Part shown: piece by piece, positions 4,063-17,511 of the stretch | How positions within the stretch are numbered: position 1 is the first letter of the stretch | Layout of the letters: each line of letters begins with the position of its first letter | IMG/VR virus record: IMGVR_UViG_3300032315_001715 | Span: 248,001-312,000 of that record | Origin: a virus | Length of the DNA stretch: 64,000 nucleotides | Strand: one strand, 5' to 3' | Position numbers and translations under genes: made by a program | The notes under the pieces: generated by a model | Told to the model about the DNA's origin: nothing | Databases searched by the model: none | The model's input: the letters and a program-made list of their open reading frames with translations, nothing else

Positions 4063-4930
4063 TGCGAGAAAGCAGGGATTTTTTACCATTGCACAAAATA
4101 ACAGCAAGGTTGACTATGTTAGGCTTGCATACGGTCTTGCCTTAAGCCTTAAGCACAGCCAGCGAGAGGTACCCTACCTAACCGTGGCAATAACTCCTGG
4201 CACCGAGGTCGATGAGAAATATGCATGGGCGTTTGATAACATTGTGGAGATACCCTGGGGAGATCAGGCTGCTGCAAGCGAGTGGAAGCTGGAGAATGAA
4301 TGGAAATCCATATGGATGAGCCCATACGACGAAACCATTAAGGTCGAAAGCGACATGCTGTTCTTTACGGATATTAGCGAGTGGTGGTCAGCTCTTGCGA
4401 ATCAACCCAGGGATGTCGTATGGACCAATGTGGTGAAAGATTGGAAAGGTCTAAACATAACCAGCGACTACTATCGAAAGCTTTTTACCAAGGATAAGCT
4501 TCCAAACATCTATACAGGGTTGGGATATTTTCGCAAGACCGATGCAGCATATGAGGTGTTCGATCTTGCTAAGATTATAAGCTGGAACTGGGAAACGTTT
4601 TTTGATCAATTTTTCCATGCTAGCTATCGCCCAACAAATCCCAGCACCGATGTGATATTTGCCCTGGCGATGAAATTAACGGACATCGATCAAAATGATT
4701 ATACACCCCATATGGTACCTACATTCACGCACATGAAAAGCCAGTTGCAAGGTTGGAACAATCATTCGATATCCGAGGATTGGCAGCAATATCTTCGAAC
4801 GTTTTTTACACCAAATGCTGAATGCAAAATTGGTAATCATCGGCAGGTATATCCACTGCACTATCATATCAAGGAATGGTTAACTGATGACATGATACAT
4901 GTATATGAAAGGCTAGTCGGCCGTGGATAA
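4049..4930 (+). CDS. GT-A-like glycosyltransferase, paralogue
   Basis: 293 residues. SPYDETIKVESDMLFF (about residues 91-106) aligns with the DxD region of the preceding gene, but the motif here is ESD rather than DAD. Other shared features are a GLGYFRKTD segment (about residue 157) and a downstream TDVIFALAMK helix. It overlaps both neighbours. The acidic motif still permits metal binding; whether the enzyme is active cannot be judged from sequence. Confidence 0.65.
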   Translation: MRPINARKQGFFTIAQNNSKVDYVRLAYGLALSLKHSQREVPYLTVAITPGTEVDEKYAWAFDNIVEIPWGDQAAASEWKLENEWKSIWMSPYDETIKVESDMLFFTDISEWWSALANQPRDVVWTNVVKDWKGLNITSDYYRKLFTKDKLPNIYTGLGYFRKTDAAYEVFDLAKIISWNWETFFDQFFHASYRPTNPSTDVIFALAMKLTDIDQNDYTPHMVPTFTHMKSQLQGWNNHSISEDWQQYLRTFFTPNAECKIGNHRQVYPLHYHIKEWLTDDMIHVYERLVGRG

Positions 4931-5387: not shown

Positions 5388-6291
5388 AATATCAGATTTT
5401 GATTTTGTATTTCTCAGCTTTGATGAACCGAACGCTGAACAACTATATGCCGATTTTCTCGACATGGTTCCATGGTGCAAACGGGTACATGGTGTAAAAG
5501 GATTTGATGCTGCTCATCGAAAATGCGCCGACACCGCTGATACTGATTTCTTCATAACCGTTGATGGTGATAATCTCGTTTATCCAGAGTTCCTAGACAT
5601 GGAAATTGATATCCATGATGATCAACACGATCACGCATGGACATGGTCTGGACGTAATCATGTCAACGGCTTGGTGTACGGCAACGGCGGATTAAAGCTA
5701 TGGAGCAAGAAATTCGTCTACAACATGCAAAGCCACGAAAACGCAAACGATTCGGCTAAATCAGTTGATTTTTGTTGGGATACCAAATATCACGATCTGT
5801 TTGGATGTTACAGCACTAGCATGATCAATGCCACTCCATATCAAGCATGGCGCAGCGGATTTCGAGAAGGTGTTAAGATGTGCCTTGATCAAGGCAACCG
5901 TGTTAGACCGCACGAGTTTAATGATCGAGTTTGGTTTGGCAACATAACTCGGCTTTGCATATGGGCCAGCATAGGCCAAGACGTGGAAAACGGGATATGG
6001 GCAATATATGGAGCTAGGATGGGCTGCCATCTAGCAGTGCTAACTGACAACGACCATGGGGTTATCAGCGATTATACGGGAATGGAGCGCATATGGAACG
6101 AGGTTTCCAATAAGGATCCCTATCAAGAATGTGCAAATCTAGGCGAACAACTCAGGATCAAGCTCGGACTGGATATATCGCTATTGTCTCCGGATGACTC
6201 TAGATTTTTTAAACGAGTGTACATGAATCTACCAAGACCCGTGATTCCACCGGAAAAGATCGCGCATTTCATGGCGTACAGGTATGTATGA
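5377..6291 (+). CDS. Putative glycosyltransferase (VDGDN motif)
   Basis: 304 residues. The segment FFITVDGDNLVYPEF (about residues 58-72) has a DGD motif at the end of a predicted strand, as in GT-A nucleotide-sugar enzymes. Further blocks are KRVHGVKGFDAAHRKCA and GRNHVNGLVYGNGGLKLW. The next gene repeats the same blocks in the same order (KRVHGIKGINEAHKHCA, RNPVNGLSYGYGSVKLW), so the two arose by duplication. A donor or acceptor cannot be named. Confidence 0.65.
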   Translation: MKNKISDFDFVFLSFDEPNAEQLYADFLDMVPWCKRVHGVKGFDAAHRKCADTADTDFFITVDGDNLVYPEFLDMEIDIHDDQHDHAWTWSGRNHVNGLVYGNGGLKLWSKKFVYNMQSHENANDSAKSVDFCWDTKYHDLFGCYSTSMINATPYQAWRSGFREGVKMCLDQGNRVRPHEFNDRVWFGNITRLCIWASIGQDVENGIWAIYGARMGCHLAVLTDNDHGVISDYTGMERIWNEVSNKDPYQECANLGEQLRIKLGLDISLLSPDDSRFFKRVYMNLPRPVIPPEKIAHFMAYRYV

Positions 6292-6967
6292 TCTGTTTTT
6301 CGTAACGTATGAAGAACCGAATGCCAATTTAAATTGGGCAAAAATCAAAGACAGGTTCCCACATGCTAAGAGAGTACACGGAATCAAGGGAATCAATGAG
6401 GCACACAAACATTGTGCAACGAATTCTTTTACCAGCATGTTTTGGACGGTTGACGGCGATACCATCGTCGACGATTCCTGGGATTTCTCATATCTCCCGC
6501 CCGAATGGGATAGGACCTATCTACACTTATGGTATAGTCGCAATCCTGTTAACGGGTTAAGCTATGGATACGGATCGGTTAAGCTTTGGCCTAAGCAACA
6601 GGTATTAAAGCATGTTGGGCCTTGGTTAGACTTTACCACCAGCGTGGGTAACATCAAGATTGTGGAGCAAACCATTGCCACCACGATGTTTAACACATCC
6701 CCGTTTGAATCATGGAAAAGTGCGTTTAGGGAATGTGTGAAGTTAGATAAAAATCTCAAAAATAATCCAGCCGACGCTGAGTCATTAGCTAGATTAACCG
6801 CATGGCAATATACCGTTAGTGGTGCAGACTTTTCAAAATGGTGTAATTTTGGCGCCTTTGATGCATTATTGTGGGGTACCCAGCCTACTAGCCATCTTGC
6901 TATGATCAATGATTTTGGTTGGTTGAAGCACAAATTTTCGAGCTTATATCCTTGGTCCAGGATATAA
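6284..6967 (+). CDS. Putative glycosyltransferase, shorter paralogue
   Basis: 227 residues, overlapping the upstream paralogue by 8 bases. It keeps the acidic motif (WTVDGDTIVDDSW, about residues 50-62) and the VNGLSYGYGSVKLW block but lacks about 75 C-terminal residues of its neighbour. The last codons lie inside a terminator stem, so the gene ends the fibre and glycosyltransferase transcript. Function beyond the motif is inferred. Confidence 0.6.
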   Translation: MYDLFFVTYEEPNANLNWAKIKDRFPHAKRVHGIKGINEAHKHCATNSFTSMFWTVDGDTIVDDSWDFSYLPPEWDRTYLHLWYSRNPVNGLSYGYGSVKLWPKQQVLKHVGPWLDFTTSVGNIKIVEQTIATTMFNTSPFESWKSAFRECVKLDKNLKNNPADAESLARLTAWQYTVSGADFSKWCNFGAFDALLWGTQPTSHLAMINDFGWLKHKFSSLYPWSRI

Positions 6968-6975
6968 GCTCTTAT
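6940..6975 (+). terminator. Intrinsic terminator ending the left late operon
   Basis: Perfect 12-bp inverted repeat (6940-6951 and 6960-6971, GAGCTTATATCC arms) with an 8-base loop, followed by TTATTATTG. It overlaps the last codons of the glycosyltransferase gene. Confidence 0.7.
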
Positions 6976-7077
6976 TATTGTTTGATGTTTTATGATCAAA
7001 TACTCAACGATTTCTAGCGCCATGTCCTGATATTGAGATGGTAAATATCACAGTAAAAATTGAAGAGGTGGGCATTG

Positions 7078-7434
7078 ATGTCTAGATCTAGGACCAACCA
7101 AGATGCTTGGGATCAGATTTTTGATGATCTCATACTTGAAAATGAACCGCCGGTTCGATACATCAAGGATGCTTTGATCATCACAAAAAACGGCGCCCGT
7201 TTCAGGGTGTCTCCAGATGATTTTATCGATATTGTCGCTAGAGAAAAACATTTAGATCCCGACCAAAGTGACATACAGAGCTGCTCACTTAGCATTGATT
7301 TTGCAAGGATCAAGCGAGACGTTAACAGATGGACAAACAAGTTCATCGACGTTATCGAGGAAGAAGCGGCCAGAATGGTGGTCGAAGAAGCAGCAAAAAA
7401 GAAAACCCGACCCTCTCGAAAGAAGGTTGACTGA
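7078..7434 (+). CDS. Hypothetical conserved phage protein
   Basis: 118 residues from the ATG at 7078, chosen because GAGGTG stands 8 bases upstream; a TTG at 7060 would add six residues without a ribosome site. The middle part (EPPVRYIKDALIITKNGARFRV) is beta-rich; the C-terminus is a Lys/Arg-rich basic tail (KKKTRPSRKK) that could touch nucleic acid. No family recognised. Confidence 0.65.
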   Translation: MSRSRTNQDAWDQIFDDLILENEPPVRYIKDALIITKNGARFRVSPDDFIDIVAREKHLDPDQSDIQSCSLSIDFARIKRDVNRWTNKFIDVIEEEAARMVVEEAAKKKTRPSRKKVD

Positions 7435-12845: not shown

Positions 12846-13145
12846 CTATTTATTTGGAGATGATTTTTCGTCGTCAAACAGCTGGCTGTAGATCTTGAGC
12901 TTTTCTTTCTTTTTCATCCTGTGCAGATTGAGCTCATACGAGCTGATACCAAATCGTTCTTGCACTATATCAATCATGGCCAGCACATCACCGATCTCCA
13001 TGGCAAGGAGATCTCGGTTAGAATGGGGATTTTGGCCCCTATTGGTCGAATCCGGTCCCCAACGCTTGATCTTGGATGCTGCTTGGATGACCTCGGCACA
13101 TTCCTCTTGTAGTATGTCTAGGGCTTGCATATCCAGAGAATTCAT
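12846..13145 (-). CDS. MazG-like nucleotide pyrophosphohydrolase
   Basis: 99 residues. ILQEECAEVIQAASKIKRWG (about 11-30) gives the EExxE helix and LLAMEIGDVLAMIDIV (about 46-61) the ExxD helix of the all-alpha NTP-pyrophosphatase fold. These enzymes hydrolyse NTPs or dNTPs to monophosphates, cleaning or rebalancing the pool. It overlaps the upstream kinase gene by four bases (ATGA). Confidence 0.8.
   Translation of the reverse strand: MNSLDMQALDILQEECAEVIQAASKIKRWGPDSTNRGQNPHSNRDLLAMEIGDVLAMIDIVQERFGISSYELNLHRMKKKEKLKIYSQLFDDEKSSPNK
12847..12853 (-). promoter_or_regulatory. T4-type late promoter core
   Basis: ATAAATA on the minus strand, 5 bases before the ATG at 12841 and just at the stop codon of the upstream gene. 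Transcription from it would give a nearly leaderless message. Confidence 0.45.
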
Positions 13146-13609
13146 GCCGTAGTTACCTCATCAAAGCCCTCGTCCTTGCTTGGACGTTCCAGCTGGCTCT
13201 TCATACCAAGCACCACGTTAGCTGGGATGTTTTTTCCTGGCCGAGATGCCAACCTACGTTTGAGCTCGTCATCATCAGGAGTAGCAAAGAAAACAGCTAC
13301 CTTGCGATAGTTCTCAGGGATCTCGGCCAGCTTGCTTGCTCGGCTTTTCTTCGTTAGATTCGTTTGGTCCCAGACGATGTTAGCACCATCCTTGATGGCC
13401 TGCTTGAGCTCTCGGTTCATCTGATGCGTAGCACCTTTGATCTCCTTCTGGAAGACCTCTGAATAGGTCTTGCCCTGTTCCTGCGCCTTGCGTTCGATGA
13501 CATTATCCGTACTGATCACACGGGTGTTGGTCCAATCAAACGATTGCTTGGCAAGCCAGGTGCTTTTTCCTGCGGCAGGGATTCCGATGAGCATGTACAG
13601 CGTGGACAT
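13142..13609 (-). CDS. Polynucleotide kinase-like P-loop kinase
   Basis: 155 residues from the ATG at 13609 (AAGGAG 6 bases upstream). Walker A GIPAAGKSTW (9-18), then VISTDN and NIVWDQTNLTKKSR (about 78-91) are the marks of the T4 Pnk/PNKP 5'-kinase family, where the Asp binds the 5'-hydroxyl end and the lid Arg binds ATP. No phosphatase domain is attached; a separate T4-Pnk-type phosphatase lies at 22339-22800. With the RNA ligase downstream on the same strand, it may act in tRNA or RNA repair. Confidence 0.8.
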   Translation of the reverse strand: MSTLYMLIGIPAAGKSTWLAKQSFDWTNTRVISTDNVIERKAQEQGKTYSEVFQKEIKGATHQMNRELKQAIKDGANIVWDQTNLTKKSRASKLAEIPENYRKVAVFFATPDDDELKRRLASRPGKNIPANVVLGMKSQLERPSKDEGFDEVTTA

Positions 13610-13623
13610 GTGATTCTCCTTGA

Positions 13624-13920
13624 TCATACTTTAATATCATCAACGGCATCTGTCGAGCTATTTTTCTCGGCATCCAATTCTTCTGAGGTCTTCCATTCGG
13701 TCTCCTCGCAATACTCGCAGTGGAATGCATCGCTGCCTTCTTCGCCCCACACGAACACGCAAGGGCCGTTCATGTCCCTGGTGAGGAAGATGTGATGGAA
13801 GATCAGCTTGCTGGGATTGCCGCCGAGATCCTCCATGAGCCGTGAGAGATCCTCCATGGTTTGATCCAGGATCTCTTCCGCCTTGGCGGGATCCGTGTTG
13901 TGCCACTGTAGCTGTATCAT
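13624..13920 (-). CDS. Hypothetical acidic protein with CxxC
   Basis: 98 residues, overlapping the upstream gene stop as ATGA. It is very acidic and holds FHCEYCEETEWKTSEEL near residue 68, a single CxxC. The block FHHIFLTRDMNGPCVFVWGEEGSDAF looks beta-stranded. No family recognised. Confidence 0.65.
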   Translation of the reverse strand: MIQLQWHNTDPAKAEEILDQTMEDLSRLMEDLGGNPSKLIFHHIFLTRDMNGPCVFVWGEEGSDAFHCEYCEETEWKTSEELDAEKNSSTDAVDDIKV

Positions 13921-15098: not shown

Positions 15099-15224
15099 TC
15101 ATTTGTTACCATTTGTGCTCGAGGTATTGCGATACAATTCCAGGAATTCGTTGATCTTGGTCTTGTCCAAGGAGTCACCATAAGCTTGCAGCTCTGCTAG
15201 GAGCTCTGGACTGATGTATCCTGC
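15099..15224 (-). pseudogene. Possible displaced C-terminus or gene remnant
   Basis: In the frame one off from the end of the upstream gene, 41 codons run without a stop and without a start codon, reading ISPELLAELQAYGDSLDKTK and a short helical tail. The composition looks coding. It could be the original C-terminus of the upstream protein separated by a frameshift, or debris of a lost gene. The region 14977-15098 contains nothing I can identify. Confidence 0.3.
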
Positions 15225-15562
15225 CTAACAGGTGGGGGTTCCACCTGTATAGGCTTCCACAGCTTGGCGAACTTCAGCACGTTTGGTAGCTGCTCATTTT
15301 CACAGGGCACAGGCACCGCACAGCTTTTTTCGCCGTTCAGCGTCTTGTTCTCATGCCCCAAATACACACCTGGCAAGGCCGCGATCTTCTCGAATTCCTT
15401 GCGGTTTACCCTGACCACACACTTCTTGAAGCTGTTCTTGAGCCAGGCATCATAATTTTCGTCTCCTGAATGTGCTAGATGTGCGCCCAATACCGCATGT
15501 GCCACCAAGGTGGGCGTCATGTGATCGGGAAACTCATCCAGCACTGCAATATATAGTTTCAT
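15197..15562 (-). CDS. Peptidyl-tRNA hydrolase (PTH2)-like protein
   Basis: 121 residues. The start MKLYIAVLDEFPDHMTPTLV, the HAVLGAHLAH helix, the CVVRVNRKEFEKIA strand-helix and the KTLNGEKSCAVPV strand follow the order of the PTH2 fold, and short PTH2-like proteins are common in T4-like phages. Catalytic residues cannot be confirmed by eye. The C-terminus (PPVRQDTSVQSS) is unstructured, and a shifted frame stays open beyond it. It overlaps the ligase fragment gene by four bases. Confidence 0.5.
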   Translation of the reverse strand: MKLYIAVLDEFPDHMTPTLVAHAVLGAHLAHSGDENYDAWLKNSFKKCVVRVNRKEFEKIAALPGVYLGHENKTLNGEKSCAVPVPCENEQLPNVLKFAKLWKPIQVEPPPVRQDTSVQSS

Positions 15563-16164
15563 GATTCAGCTCCATTGTCTCGATAACCCCACGCGGCATC
15601 TCCCCAGAGATGCCGCGCTTCGTTGACCCGGGTCTGCGTGCCGAGGTTCTTGCGAACCGTGTCAACCACTGCTGCGTGAAAATCAAAGTCCGAAGCGTCC
15701 CAGGCTCGGAAGATCACGCTGCGCAGATTCTGCTCAAACCCAGGCGCCCACTCCATGGCAAACGCCTTGCGATCAGCACCAAACACGTTCTTGGCACCGA
15801 TATACGCCAGCTGCCAGCGTCCAGCAGTATCCTGCACGCCATGCCAGAACGCACCCTCGAAACGCTCGAGATTGCGCCGATCATCCTCGGGCAGGAATGC
15901 CTTGACATCGTCAAGCTTCTCGTCGAGGATCATCTCGATCACGCCGTTCTCGCGCAGGATCTGATCCTTGGCCTTGTGGATGGTCACGTACTCCTTGCCC
16001 TTGAGCTTGAGCATGTGGCCGTCATCAAAGCGGATGATCCAGCCTTCCTGGCCCTGGAGATCATGGGTTTCCGCCAGCAGGTGCTCCATGCTGGCGGTGG
16101 TGCCGGGATACTGACGCACTACAGGAATATTGTACCTGTTGGCAAGGGTCTTCATGGTCATCAT
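15559..16164 (-). CDS. RNA ligase (T4 Rnl1 type), C-terminal fragment
   Basis: 201 residues. GQEGWIIRFDDGHMLKLKGK (about residues 38-57) carries nucleotidyltransferase motifs IV and V, and the remainder matches the Rnl1-specific C-terminal domain. It continues the fragment at 16788-17408 exactly where T4 Rnl1 runs on after TGEYISYD. A TAG stop lies 6 bases upstream in frame, and the MMTMK start has no good ribosome site. So the polypeptide may be made inefficiently, or the two halves may be joined by an unseen mechanism. Without motif I this piece cannot act alone. Confidence 0.85.
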   Translation of the reverse strand: MMTMKTLANRYNIPVVRQYPGTTASMEHLLAETHDLQGQEGWIIRFDDGHMLKLKGKEYVTIHKAKDQILRENGVIEMILDEKLDDVKAFLPEDDRRNLERFEGAFWHGVQDTAGRWQLAYIGAKNVFGADRKAFAMEWAPGFEQNLRSVIFRAWDASDFDFHAAVVDTVRKNLGTQTRVNEARHLWGDAAWGYRDNGAES

Positions 16165-16167
16165 CTG

Positions 16168-16175
16168 CTAAATAC
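16168..16175 (+). promoter_or_regulatory. Late-type promoter before GIY-YIG gene
   Basis: CTAAATAC, 17 bases before the ATG at 16193 and just upstream of a GAGAGG ribosome site. It matches five or six of the eight bases of the T4 late consensus. Confidence 0.4.
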
Positions 16176-16192
16176 TCTTTGAGAGGTGTTGT

Positions 16193-16816
16193 ATGAACAG
16201 TTACTACGTGTACTCTATAACAGACCCATTAACCTGTCAACCGTTTTATATCGGGAAAGGTTCAAAGAAACGGGCATGGTCACATACATCCAAAGATGCT
16301 AAATCAAAACGGGTTAGGGATAAAATCTCGTCAATACGCAAGCGTGGTCAAGAACCAATAGTTGGTATTATACAGGATCAGCTTGACGAGGACGCTGCAT
16401 ACGAATTAGAGAAATCATTGATTTCTAGATATGGTAGAAAAGACTATGATCCAAACGGAATTTTAATGAACATCTGTGAAGATAGTCGTCCCCCAAAGAA
16501 AAAATTTCAAACTTTGGAAACACGACGGAAGATTTCTCTAGGAATGCAGGGAAAGAACAAAGGTAAAACTACCTGGAACAGGGGTAAGAAATTTTCTAGA
16601 GGTTGTCAGTCTAGAAGCCAAACAACTAATATTATGAAAACGAGAATACTCAATCTTATGAATAGATTGTGGAGTCATTACGAAACTATTAATGACTCCA
16701 CAATCAAGCTTTCTAGGCAACAAGGTATCATTGCAAACAATTCACCCATATCCGAGGCTGCGATAATACATTTCTTTGGCCGCGCTATCATTCGTAAGGA
16801 AGATATTCTCCAGTAA
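16193..16816 (+). CDS. GIY-YIG homing endonuclease inserted in RNA ligase gene
   Basis: 207 residues. YYVYSITDP and PFYIGKGSKKRAWSH (residues 4-31) are the GIY and YIG motifs with the following catalytic Arg; a helical DNA-binding tail with GMQGKNKGKTTW (a NUMOD3-like segment) follows. It has its own GAGAGG site 6 bases before the ATG. It lies antisense between the two halves of the RNA ligase gene, and its last 29 bases overlap the N-terminal half. Composition is AT-richer than its flanks, as expected for a mobile gene. Confidence 0.9.
   Translation: MNSYYVYSITDPLTCQPFYIGKGSKKRAWSHTSKDAKSKRVRDKISSIRKRGQEPIVGIIQDQLDEDAAYELEKSLISRYGRKDYDPNGILMNICEDSRPPKKKFQTLETRRKISLGMQGKNKGKTTWNRGKKFSRGCQSRSQTTNIMKTRILNLMNRLWSHYETINDSTIKLSRQQGIIANNSPISEAAIIHFFGRAIIRKEDILQ
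16665..16705. repeat. 16-bp inverted repeat inside the endonuclease gene
   Basis: Arms 16665-16680 and 16690-16705 are perfect inverse copies (GATTGTGGAGTCATTA) with a 9-base loop, within the C-terminal coding part of the GIY-YIG gene. It could terminate or shield transcripts of the antisense ligase message. Confidence 0.75.
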
Positions 16817-17408
16817 AGTTGTTCCTGATGGCAGTCAGGATGAGATTATCTTCTGGATAATCAATTACAATCCGTTGCTTCCTTGAGACCCATTCAAAAA
16901 TTGGGGTCAATCCATTTGATAGGCATTCACGGATGAACTGATCATAGTTCGGATGATCCACGAGCCACACCTCAGCCTGCATGCTGACATCGGTGACGCC
17001 CATCTTGGTGCCCAGGCGATATGCGTCACCGATGGGAACCGGGCGGACCATGCTGCCATCCAGCTTTTCCAGGATCACATGCGGTTGACCAAGATCAATG
17101 CGATCAATCTGGGTTTCGTCGCGCTCGTTCACGTTGAAGAACTTGTGATACGGGCGAGAGATCAACTGGCCAGACTTGTCAAAGATCAGGCCACGGCATT
17201 CACGCCGGATGGCCTTGGCACGGGTAGCCTCAGCACGCATGCGCGGCGAGCCACCAGCGGTATGGACGCCCGGAAAGGTGTCAGGACCGCTCACCAGGTA
17301 GTTCACCACAAAGCCCCATTCTCGCTCGGCAATGATGAACTCCTTGGCGTCCTTGACCACGGCTCGGACCTCATCTAGATGCTGTAGCTTGGGAAATTCG
17401 TAACGCAT
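16788..17408 (-). CDS. RNA ligase (T4 Rnl1 type), N-terminal fragment
   Basis: 206 residues. Motif I is EKLDGS with the AMP-accepting Lys at 115; the upstream ECRGLIFD and ISRPYHKFFN blocks and motif III (IFEWVSRKQRIV, about 178-189) match T4 Rnl1. The reading frame ends TGEYLPYE then TGA, exactly at the endonuclease insertion. T4 Rnl1 reseals tRNAs cut by host anticodon nucleases. Full-length enzyme would be about 407 residues (T4: 374). A sigma70-type promoter stands upstream. Confidence 0.9.
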   Translation of the reverse strand: MRYEFPKLQHLDEVRAVVKDAKEFIIAEREWGFVVNYLVSGPDTFPGVHTAGGSPRMRAEATRAKAIRRECRGLIFDKSGQLISRPYHKFFNVNERDETQIDRIDLGQPHVILEKLDGSMVRPVPIGDAYRLGTKMGVTDVSMQAEVWLVDHPNYDQFIRECLSNGLTPIFEWVSRKQRIVIDYPEDNLILTAIRNNFTGEYLPYE

Positions 17409-17432
17409 GTTGCAGCCCTCTTTTGATACTGC

Positions 17433-17460
17433 ATATTAGCATCGACCCGATACAAGTCAA
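17433..17460 (-). promoter_or_regulatory. Sigma70-type promoter for RNA ligase
   Basis: TTGACT (17455-17460), 16-base spacer, TAATAT (17433-17438), on the minus strand about 25 bases before the ATG at 17408. Confidence 0.7.
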
Positions 17461-17511
17461 TGGTATTTTACGGGTTTTCTTCCTTGTATTACAGTGGGTT
17501 ACAAAACTGCA

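Follow-up and report, generated by a model that had tools for sequence, protein, structure and literature searches.

The 64,000-nucleotide stretch of DNA analysed here, called the window, covers positions 248001-312000 of a giant-phage record that is 452,799 bases long. It carries a gene for an RNA ligase of the T4 Rnl1 type that is divided into two open reading frames (ORFs), here called the N-half and the C-half, by an endonuclease gene on the opposite strand. The features of the locus, in window positions, are as follows.

17408-16788, minus strand: RNA ligase N-half, 206 aa, with motif I (K115-x-D-G) and motif III (E172), ending TGEYLPYE-stop
16788-16816: tail-to-tail overlap of 29 nt, the endonuclease end (RKEDILQ-stop) lying antisense to the ligase codons for TGEYLPY
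16156-16790: insert between the ligase halves, about 635 nt, its limits judged against intact relatives
16193-16816, plus strand, opposite to the ligase: homing-type endonuclease of the GIY-YIG family, 207 aa
16240-16212, minus strand: sigma-70-like candidate promoter, TTGACA-N17-TAGAGT, within the endonuclease coding region and 48 nt upstream of the C-half start
16165-16192: divergent spacer of 28 bp between the endonuclease start (plus strand) and the C-half start (minus strand)
16164-15559, minus strand: RNA ligase C-half, 201 aa (MMTMKTLANRY...), with motif IV (E40-G), motif V (K53-L-K55) and the C-terminal domain
15197-15562, minus strand: next gene, 121 aa, phrog_5822, function not assigned, its first 4 nt shared with the end of the C-half
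Roughly 16940-16791 and 16155-16117, minus strand: co-conversion tract, ligase codons about 157-221, limits approximate

The homology of both halves to Rnl1 is beyond chance. The N-half matches the Pfam family RNA_lig_T4_1 (E 7e-24) and, in PDB sequence matches, the structures of T4 Rnl1 (2c5u, E 8.5e-17). The C-half matches T4_Rnl1_C with an E of 3.5e-5, slightly under the curated cut-off, and T4 Rnl1 itself with an E of 3e-6. T4 Rnl1 is the best PDB sequence match for both. The phrog_562 profile is covered from position 52 to 196 by the N-half and from 212 to 363 by the C-half. Motifs I (KxDG), III, IV (EG) and V (KxK) and the Rnl1 C-terminal domain are all present, distributed over two ORFs, and the residues of these motifs that are invariant in 65 intact ligases are all kept in the split copies. 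Alignments with T4 Rnl1 place the cut at about residue 193 of the T4 protein, after motif IIIa and before motif IV.

Approximately 110 intact relatives were compared, and in these the protein runs from TGEYxxYx directly into the C-half sequence. Placed end to end, the window ORFs are only 2 residues longer than intact genes, with the extra residues at the start of the C-half, so no ligase codon is missing. As in a gene in pieces, the locus combines an endonuclease insertion, two open halves and the loss of zero residues. The insert has a GC content of 38% versus 54-58% in the ligase halves. An earlier, sequence-only reading of this DNA had described an Rnl1-type ligase split by a GIY-YIG gene on the opposite strand, and the coordinates, the strands and the Pfam, PHROG and T4 Rnl1 matches agree with it. 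It had also held that the halves are contiguous (TGEYLPYE / MMTMKTLANRY), that motifs I and III (K and E in the N-half) are separated from IV and V (E40 and K53/K55 in the C-half), and that the endonuclease overlaps the N-half, all of which is borne out. The comparison with intact homologues that it proposed finds nothing missing in the window copy and a hot spot at the site. A second record (L001/L070/L130) has the same junctions and is 100% identical over the 8.6-kb stretches compared.

A P-loop kinase gene related to polynucleotide kinase (phrog_505, phrog_2071) lies downstream of the ligase at window positions 13142-13627 on the minus strand. A similar kinase is found near the ligase in two related loci (L131 and L205). 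The proximity of kinase and ligase in all three suggests an RNA-repair cluster.

The position of the break was examined in an AlphaFold2 model of an intact relative, L005 (mean pLDDT 95), whose best structural match is T4 Rnl1. In the model the break site falls in the loop after the strand at 176-184, at the beginning of the helix at 193-203. Because this is a loop just before a helix of the nucleotidyltransferase domain, no secondary-structure element would be cut. The catalytic domain is nevertheless divided between the halves, and therefore neither could work alone and assembly would be required. A methionine occurs no more than 3 residues after the site in 47 of 109 intact relatives, compared with 9% in control windows.

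The endonuclease comprises a GIY-YIG domain (approximately residues 1-108) and a C-terminal region (109-207). It matches Pfam LEM-3_GIY-YIG (E 4e-7) and the homing endonucleases of phrog_314. Two related phage loci, L131 and L188, carry endonucleases that are 55-57% identical to it over the full length. When the three copies are aligned, Y19-G21, R27, H31, E73 and N93 are invariant, and the window endonuclease has the conserved Y, R, H, E and N of the GIY-YIG catalytic domain. High-identity full-length relatives were found only inside Rnl1 genes. The closest relatives outside Rnl1 are 49-53% identical and alignable over approximately residues 1-109, with weaker matches extending further; the two of these that were examined are free-standing genes beside other genes. 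This distribution fits a C-terminal part that would be target-specific.

Two further features of the endonuclease region were considered. A perfect inverted repeat of approximately 14 bp (TTGTGGAGTCATTA...TAATGACTCCACAA) lies within the endonuclease gene at 16663-16707; it is not present in the L131 or L188 copies, and the hairpin was rejected as an RNA element for its lack of conservation. The motif TATAAATA, of the T4-type late promoter, lies on the endonuclease strand over the C-half start codon in L131 (approximately 2248-2283) and L188 (approximately 4734-4757). A T4-type late promoter for the window endonuclease was dropped, since the window has only CTAAATA there and neither motif is enriched in it.

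To find further split genes, relatives were scanned for gaps in the ligase. L131 and L188 have the endonuclease family of the window at the identical site and in the identical orientation. The spacer of L131 resembles that of the window (CTCAAAGA-TATTTA) and that of L188 is related. Other endonucleases occupy the same site elsewhere. L010 and L205 (= L207) carry HNH-type endonucleases that are 51% identical to each other, that of L010 matching Pfam HNH (below the cut-off) plus an HTH. L051 carries a SegE-like GIY-YIG endonuclease, also with a Pfam match below the cut-off. The 3' end of the endonuclease overlaps the N-half in the window, L131, L188, L010, L205 and L051. In L196 (3501-4683) the break falls at this very point and nothing lies in it but a short gap: the N-half ends TGEYIRL-stop and is followed by 10 bases, an ATG and a C-half of 197 aa. 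This bare split is possibly the scar of an endonuclease loss. L049 (2854-5452) presents a different arrangement, in which a split intein interrupts Rnl1 at motif I (LEKLDG/SMIRP) and an antisense homing-type endonuclease (DUF7487) lies between the intein pieces. The halves are open and motif-complete in every one of these other split copies, and each insert leaves the C-half with its own start codon.

Judged by this recurrence, the position between motifs IIIa and IV is an insertion hot spot. A variable loop that tolerates insertion and often has an in-frame methionine to serve as a start would explain the repeated splitting by different endonucleases. Two apparent cases did not hold up: Synechococcus phage BUCT-ZZ01, suspected because two annotated genes lie under the match, has an intact gene, and the apparent interruption in L026 is a frame break elsewhere, not at the hot spot. 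In L051 the C-half is closely followed by a second SegE-like GIY-YIG ORF (6021-7205, minus strand, 394 aa), which is antisense as well.

The endonuclease is antisense to the ligase in 7/7 endonuclease-bearing Rnl1 loci found. This bears on a comparison made in the sequence-only reading with Aeromonas phage Aeh1, where mobE was said to be co-directional with the nrdA gene that it splits. The split-gene analogy stands; with all seven loci arranged in this way, the antisense orientation is not peculiar to the window.

The distribution of split genes on the ligase tree points to repeated splitting. Eight split cases require 7 state changes, at least 6 of them forced by well-supported branches, and on this tree the splits arose at least six times independently. 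Each of the three loci with the window's endonuclease family belongs to a different ligase clade, and the nearest other relatives of the window ligase (L005, L071 and L073) are intact. Sliding identity comparisons show that outside a short tract the window ligase resembles its own clade (L005, L071, L073 and L049). From approximately 50 codons upstream to approximately 15 codons downstream of the insert it instead resembles L131 and L188. Diagnostic sites within the tract, whose limits were drawn by eye once the profile was known, number 27 shared with the carriers only and 18 with the own clade, compared with 38 and 185 outside (Fisher p 1e-8). The tract, of approximately 60 codons, is a co-conversion footprint of homing. 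The endonuclease shows the distribution of a mobile gene, with its site occupied in distant hosts and empty in close relatives, and with co-conversion at the flanks.

An alternative is that the split dates back to an ancestor and that endonucleases later colonised the break and were exchanged there, so that the present one is not its cause. L010 has a larger tract: its ligase ends are approximately 80-87% identical to those of the window, codons 100-260 come from a lineage like that of L196 and L205, and yet the endonucleases of L010 and the window are different and sit at the same point. L196 shows that a split free of endonuclease can exist, and the same course has been suggested for gene 43 of phage 25. 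Against this, the nearest other relatives are intact, and the co-conversion tract shows that the endonuclease arrived together with its flanks. We regard an ancestral split as rather improbable.

A joining of the halves at the level of the message was also considered. Introns are a frequent home of endonucleases, and the halves would join nearly exactly in frame if they were the exons of a self-splicing intron bearing an antisense endonuclease gene. However, no match to a group I or group II intron was found with Rfam, either in the window locus at E up to 10 or in seven related loci at E up to 1. The endonuclease ORF occupies almost all of the 635-nt insert, and the strong hairpin within it is not conserved in L131 or L188. 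The unrelated inserts have just the site and the antisense layout in common, and each C-half starts with its own start codon, in several cases with a promoter and a ribosome site as well. An intron is thus highly unlikely. It is hardly conceivable that translational bypassing or protein trans-splicing yields a full-length ligase while the message stays unspliced. In T4 gene 60, 50 nt adjoining the mobA insertion are bypassed, which provides a precedent; the gap in the window is more than 600 nt, far above known cases. For trans-splicing there is the split-intein version of Rnl1 in L049, whose N-piece has an intein domain. The window halves have no Pfam intein domain and end and start at ligase residues. 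With no intein in the window copy, the halves would need non-covalent assembly.

The C-half has three candidate start codons (ATG at 16164, 16161 and 16155). The predicted ribosome duplex is -2.4 kcal/mol for the first two and -4.0 for the third, compared with a median of -3.0 at random positions, and with -6.3 for the N-half and -9.7 for the endonuclease. The spacer at 16165-16192 holds both the strong endonuclease site (GAGAGG) and the weak site of the C-half. The C-half site is likewise weak in L131 and L188, and good in L010, L205 and L049. The observation of a poor C-half ribosome site in the sequence-only reading is therefore sound, but that reading missed the candidate promoter at 16240-16212 and the good sites of other inserts.

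The candidate promoter matches the consensus at 10/12 positions. It is the sole occurrence of TTGACA-N17-TANANT in the 64 kb, where 0.08 would be expected for this pattern, which was set after the site had been seen. A TTGACA lies within the 120 nt that precede the C-half in 5/7 inserts, compared with 3/109 intact genes at the same place. In shuffling tests the C-half promoters of L205, L010 and L049 are strong (p 0.002 or less), those of the window (p 0.04) and L188 (p 0.08) are moderate, and those of L131 and L051 are no better than chance. The second piece of L049 has both a strong promoter (TTGACA-N17-TATATA) and a ribosome site. Downstream, the 4-nt overlap of the next gene's start with the C-half stop places the C-half in an operon. 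A search of 15500-17500 for terminator-like sites found none, and together with the ATGA overlap this makes read-through expression of the C-half possible. The C-half is probably expressed from its own start codon, both by the insert promoter and by operon read-through.

The main alternative is that the locus is a recent pseudogene, in which the ligase was broken lately, the C-half is translated poorly or not at all and the enzyme is vanishing, being either unneeded or backed up by a second ligase. The weak ribosome site ahead of the C-half is what would be expected. In addition, the same genome encodes a further RNA ligase, from the Rnl2 family (PF09414; record positions 370773-371294, locus L215), and loss of the split Rnl1 might therefore be tolerated as partly redundant. 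The only copies of the window split that were found are identical, which makes the divergence since the split undatable. On the other hand, both halves are open, full length and retain every motif. The end branch of the window ligase is 0.29, compared with 0.43-0.77 in the intact L005, L071 and L073, and its pattern of substitution by codon position equals that of intact pairs, although both measures span the time before and after the split together. Codon-position patterns were used in place of dN/dS, synonymous sites being mostly saturated against the available relatives. The other split copies are also open and motif-complete, including the bare split of L196, several have new promoters and ribosome sites, and the ATGA overlap keeps the window C-half in a translated operon. 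Decay of the window ligase is disfavoured, and we consider the pseudogene explanation unlikely.

These comparisons favour a gene in pieces made by homing, and it is likely that the halves are expressed separately and then reassemble, expression and assembly being inferred. In this account a mobile GIY-YIG gene invaded the conserved Rnl1 hot spot in antisense, sparing every ligase codon. The insert came by homing from another phage already carrying the endonuclease, and, as the sequence comparison shows, approximately 150 nt of ligase sequence upstream and 40 nt downstream were co-converted along with it. The N-half, with motifs I-IIIa, would still be transcribed from the old promoter. The C-half, with motifs IV-V and the C-terminal domain, would depend on its new start codon, the sigma-70-like promoter of the insert and operon read-through. 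Like the pieces of Aeh1 NrdA and of phage 25 gp43A/43B, the two ligase halves most likely come together as a single active enzyme. Assembly, intron and decay had been left as options by the sequence-only reading; assembly is now favoured on inferential grounds, the intron is unsupported by the Rfam searches, the inserts and the start codons, and decay is disfavoured.

A broader reading is offered tentatively, and may well prove wrong. The loop that leads from motif IIIa to motif IV could be a recurrent fission point at which unrelated antisense cassettes, with their divergent expression, give the C-half a promoter and a start, so that a two-subunit ligase survives and the two-gene state outlasts the loss of the endonuclease, as in L196. 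If this is true, a useful target can persist as a two-subunit ligase even after the endonuclease is gone.

To our knowledge few endonuclease-made genes in pieces have been described, mostly one case each. Here a single gene has undergone at least six splits on the tree, almost all at the same position. Several types of endonuclease are involved, one split has none, the layout is constant, and homing footprints and newly supplied promoters accompany the inserts. This amounts to a replicated natural experiment on how a selfish gene can interrupt a useful one and leave it alive. One small and easily assayed enzyme is available in intact and split form, as a split-intein version and as a bare split. 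Rnl1 is a laboratory enzyme in wide use, and the hot spot suggests a natural break point for engineering a split Rnl1. In a literature search of open-licence papers, no description of a phage Rnl1 in two pieces turned up. Endonuclease-made split genes as such are already known, from Aeh1 nrdA, T4 topoisomerase and the phage 25 DNA polymerase. What is new is the Rnl1 target, the constant antisense layout, the fact that unrelated endonucleases have reused one site, the promoters ahead of the C-half and the split without an insert.

The window ligase shares its family, motifs and predicted fold with T4 RNA ligase 1 (gp63, RnlA), which is a single polypeptide in T4. Fractured genes with split inteins, reportedly described by Dassa et al. 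in 2009, are said to have an endonuclease that interrupts the gene while both halves are kept. The Rnl1 of L049, with its antisense endonuclease within a split intein, resembles these, and the window copy differs in having no intein. A close parallel is Aeromonas phage Aeh1, in which nrdA is split by mobE and the halves form an active enzyme (PMC2988022). In both cases an endonuclease gene lies within a conserved phage enzyme gene and leaves two intact coding halves. The window differs in its target, an RNA ligase, in its GIY-YIG endonuclease and antisense orientation, and in that the activity of its halves is putative; the Rnl1 site has also been struck independently by several endonuclease families. 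The T4 topoisomerase genes 39/60 (mobA) are a further split phage enzyme linked to an endonuclease insertion, and the DNA polymerase of phage 25 and 44RR is split into 43A and 43B, the products of which co-purify and are active (PMC2988022). These are likewise split phage enzymes with endonuclease insertions, though the enzymes are other ones. L196 is, like 44RR, split without an endonuclease; 44RR has an untranslated spacer, whereas in L196 just 10 nt lie between the halves.
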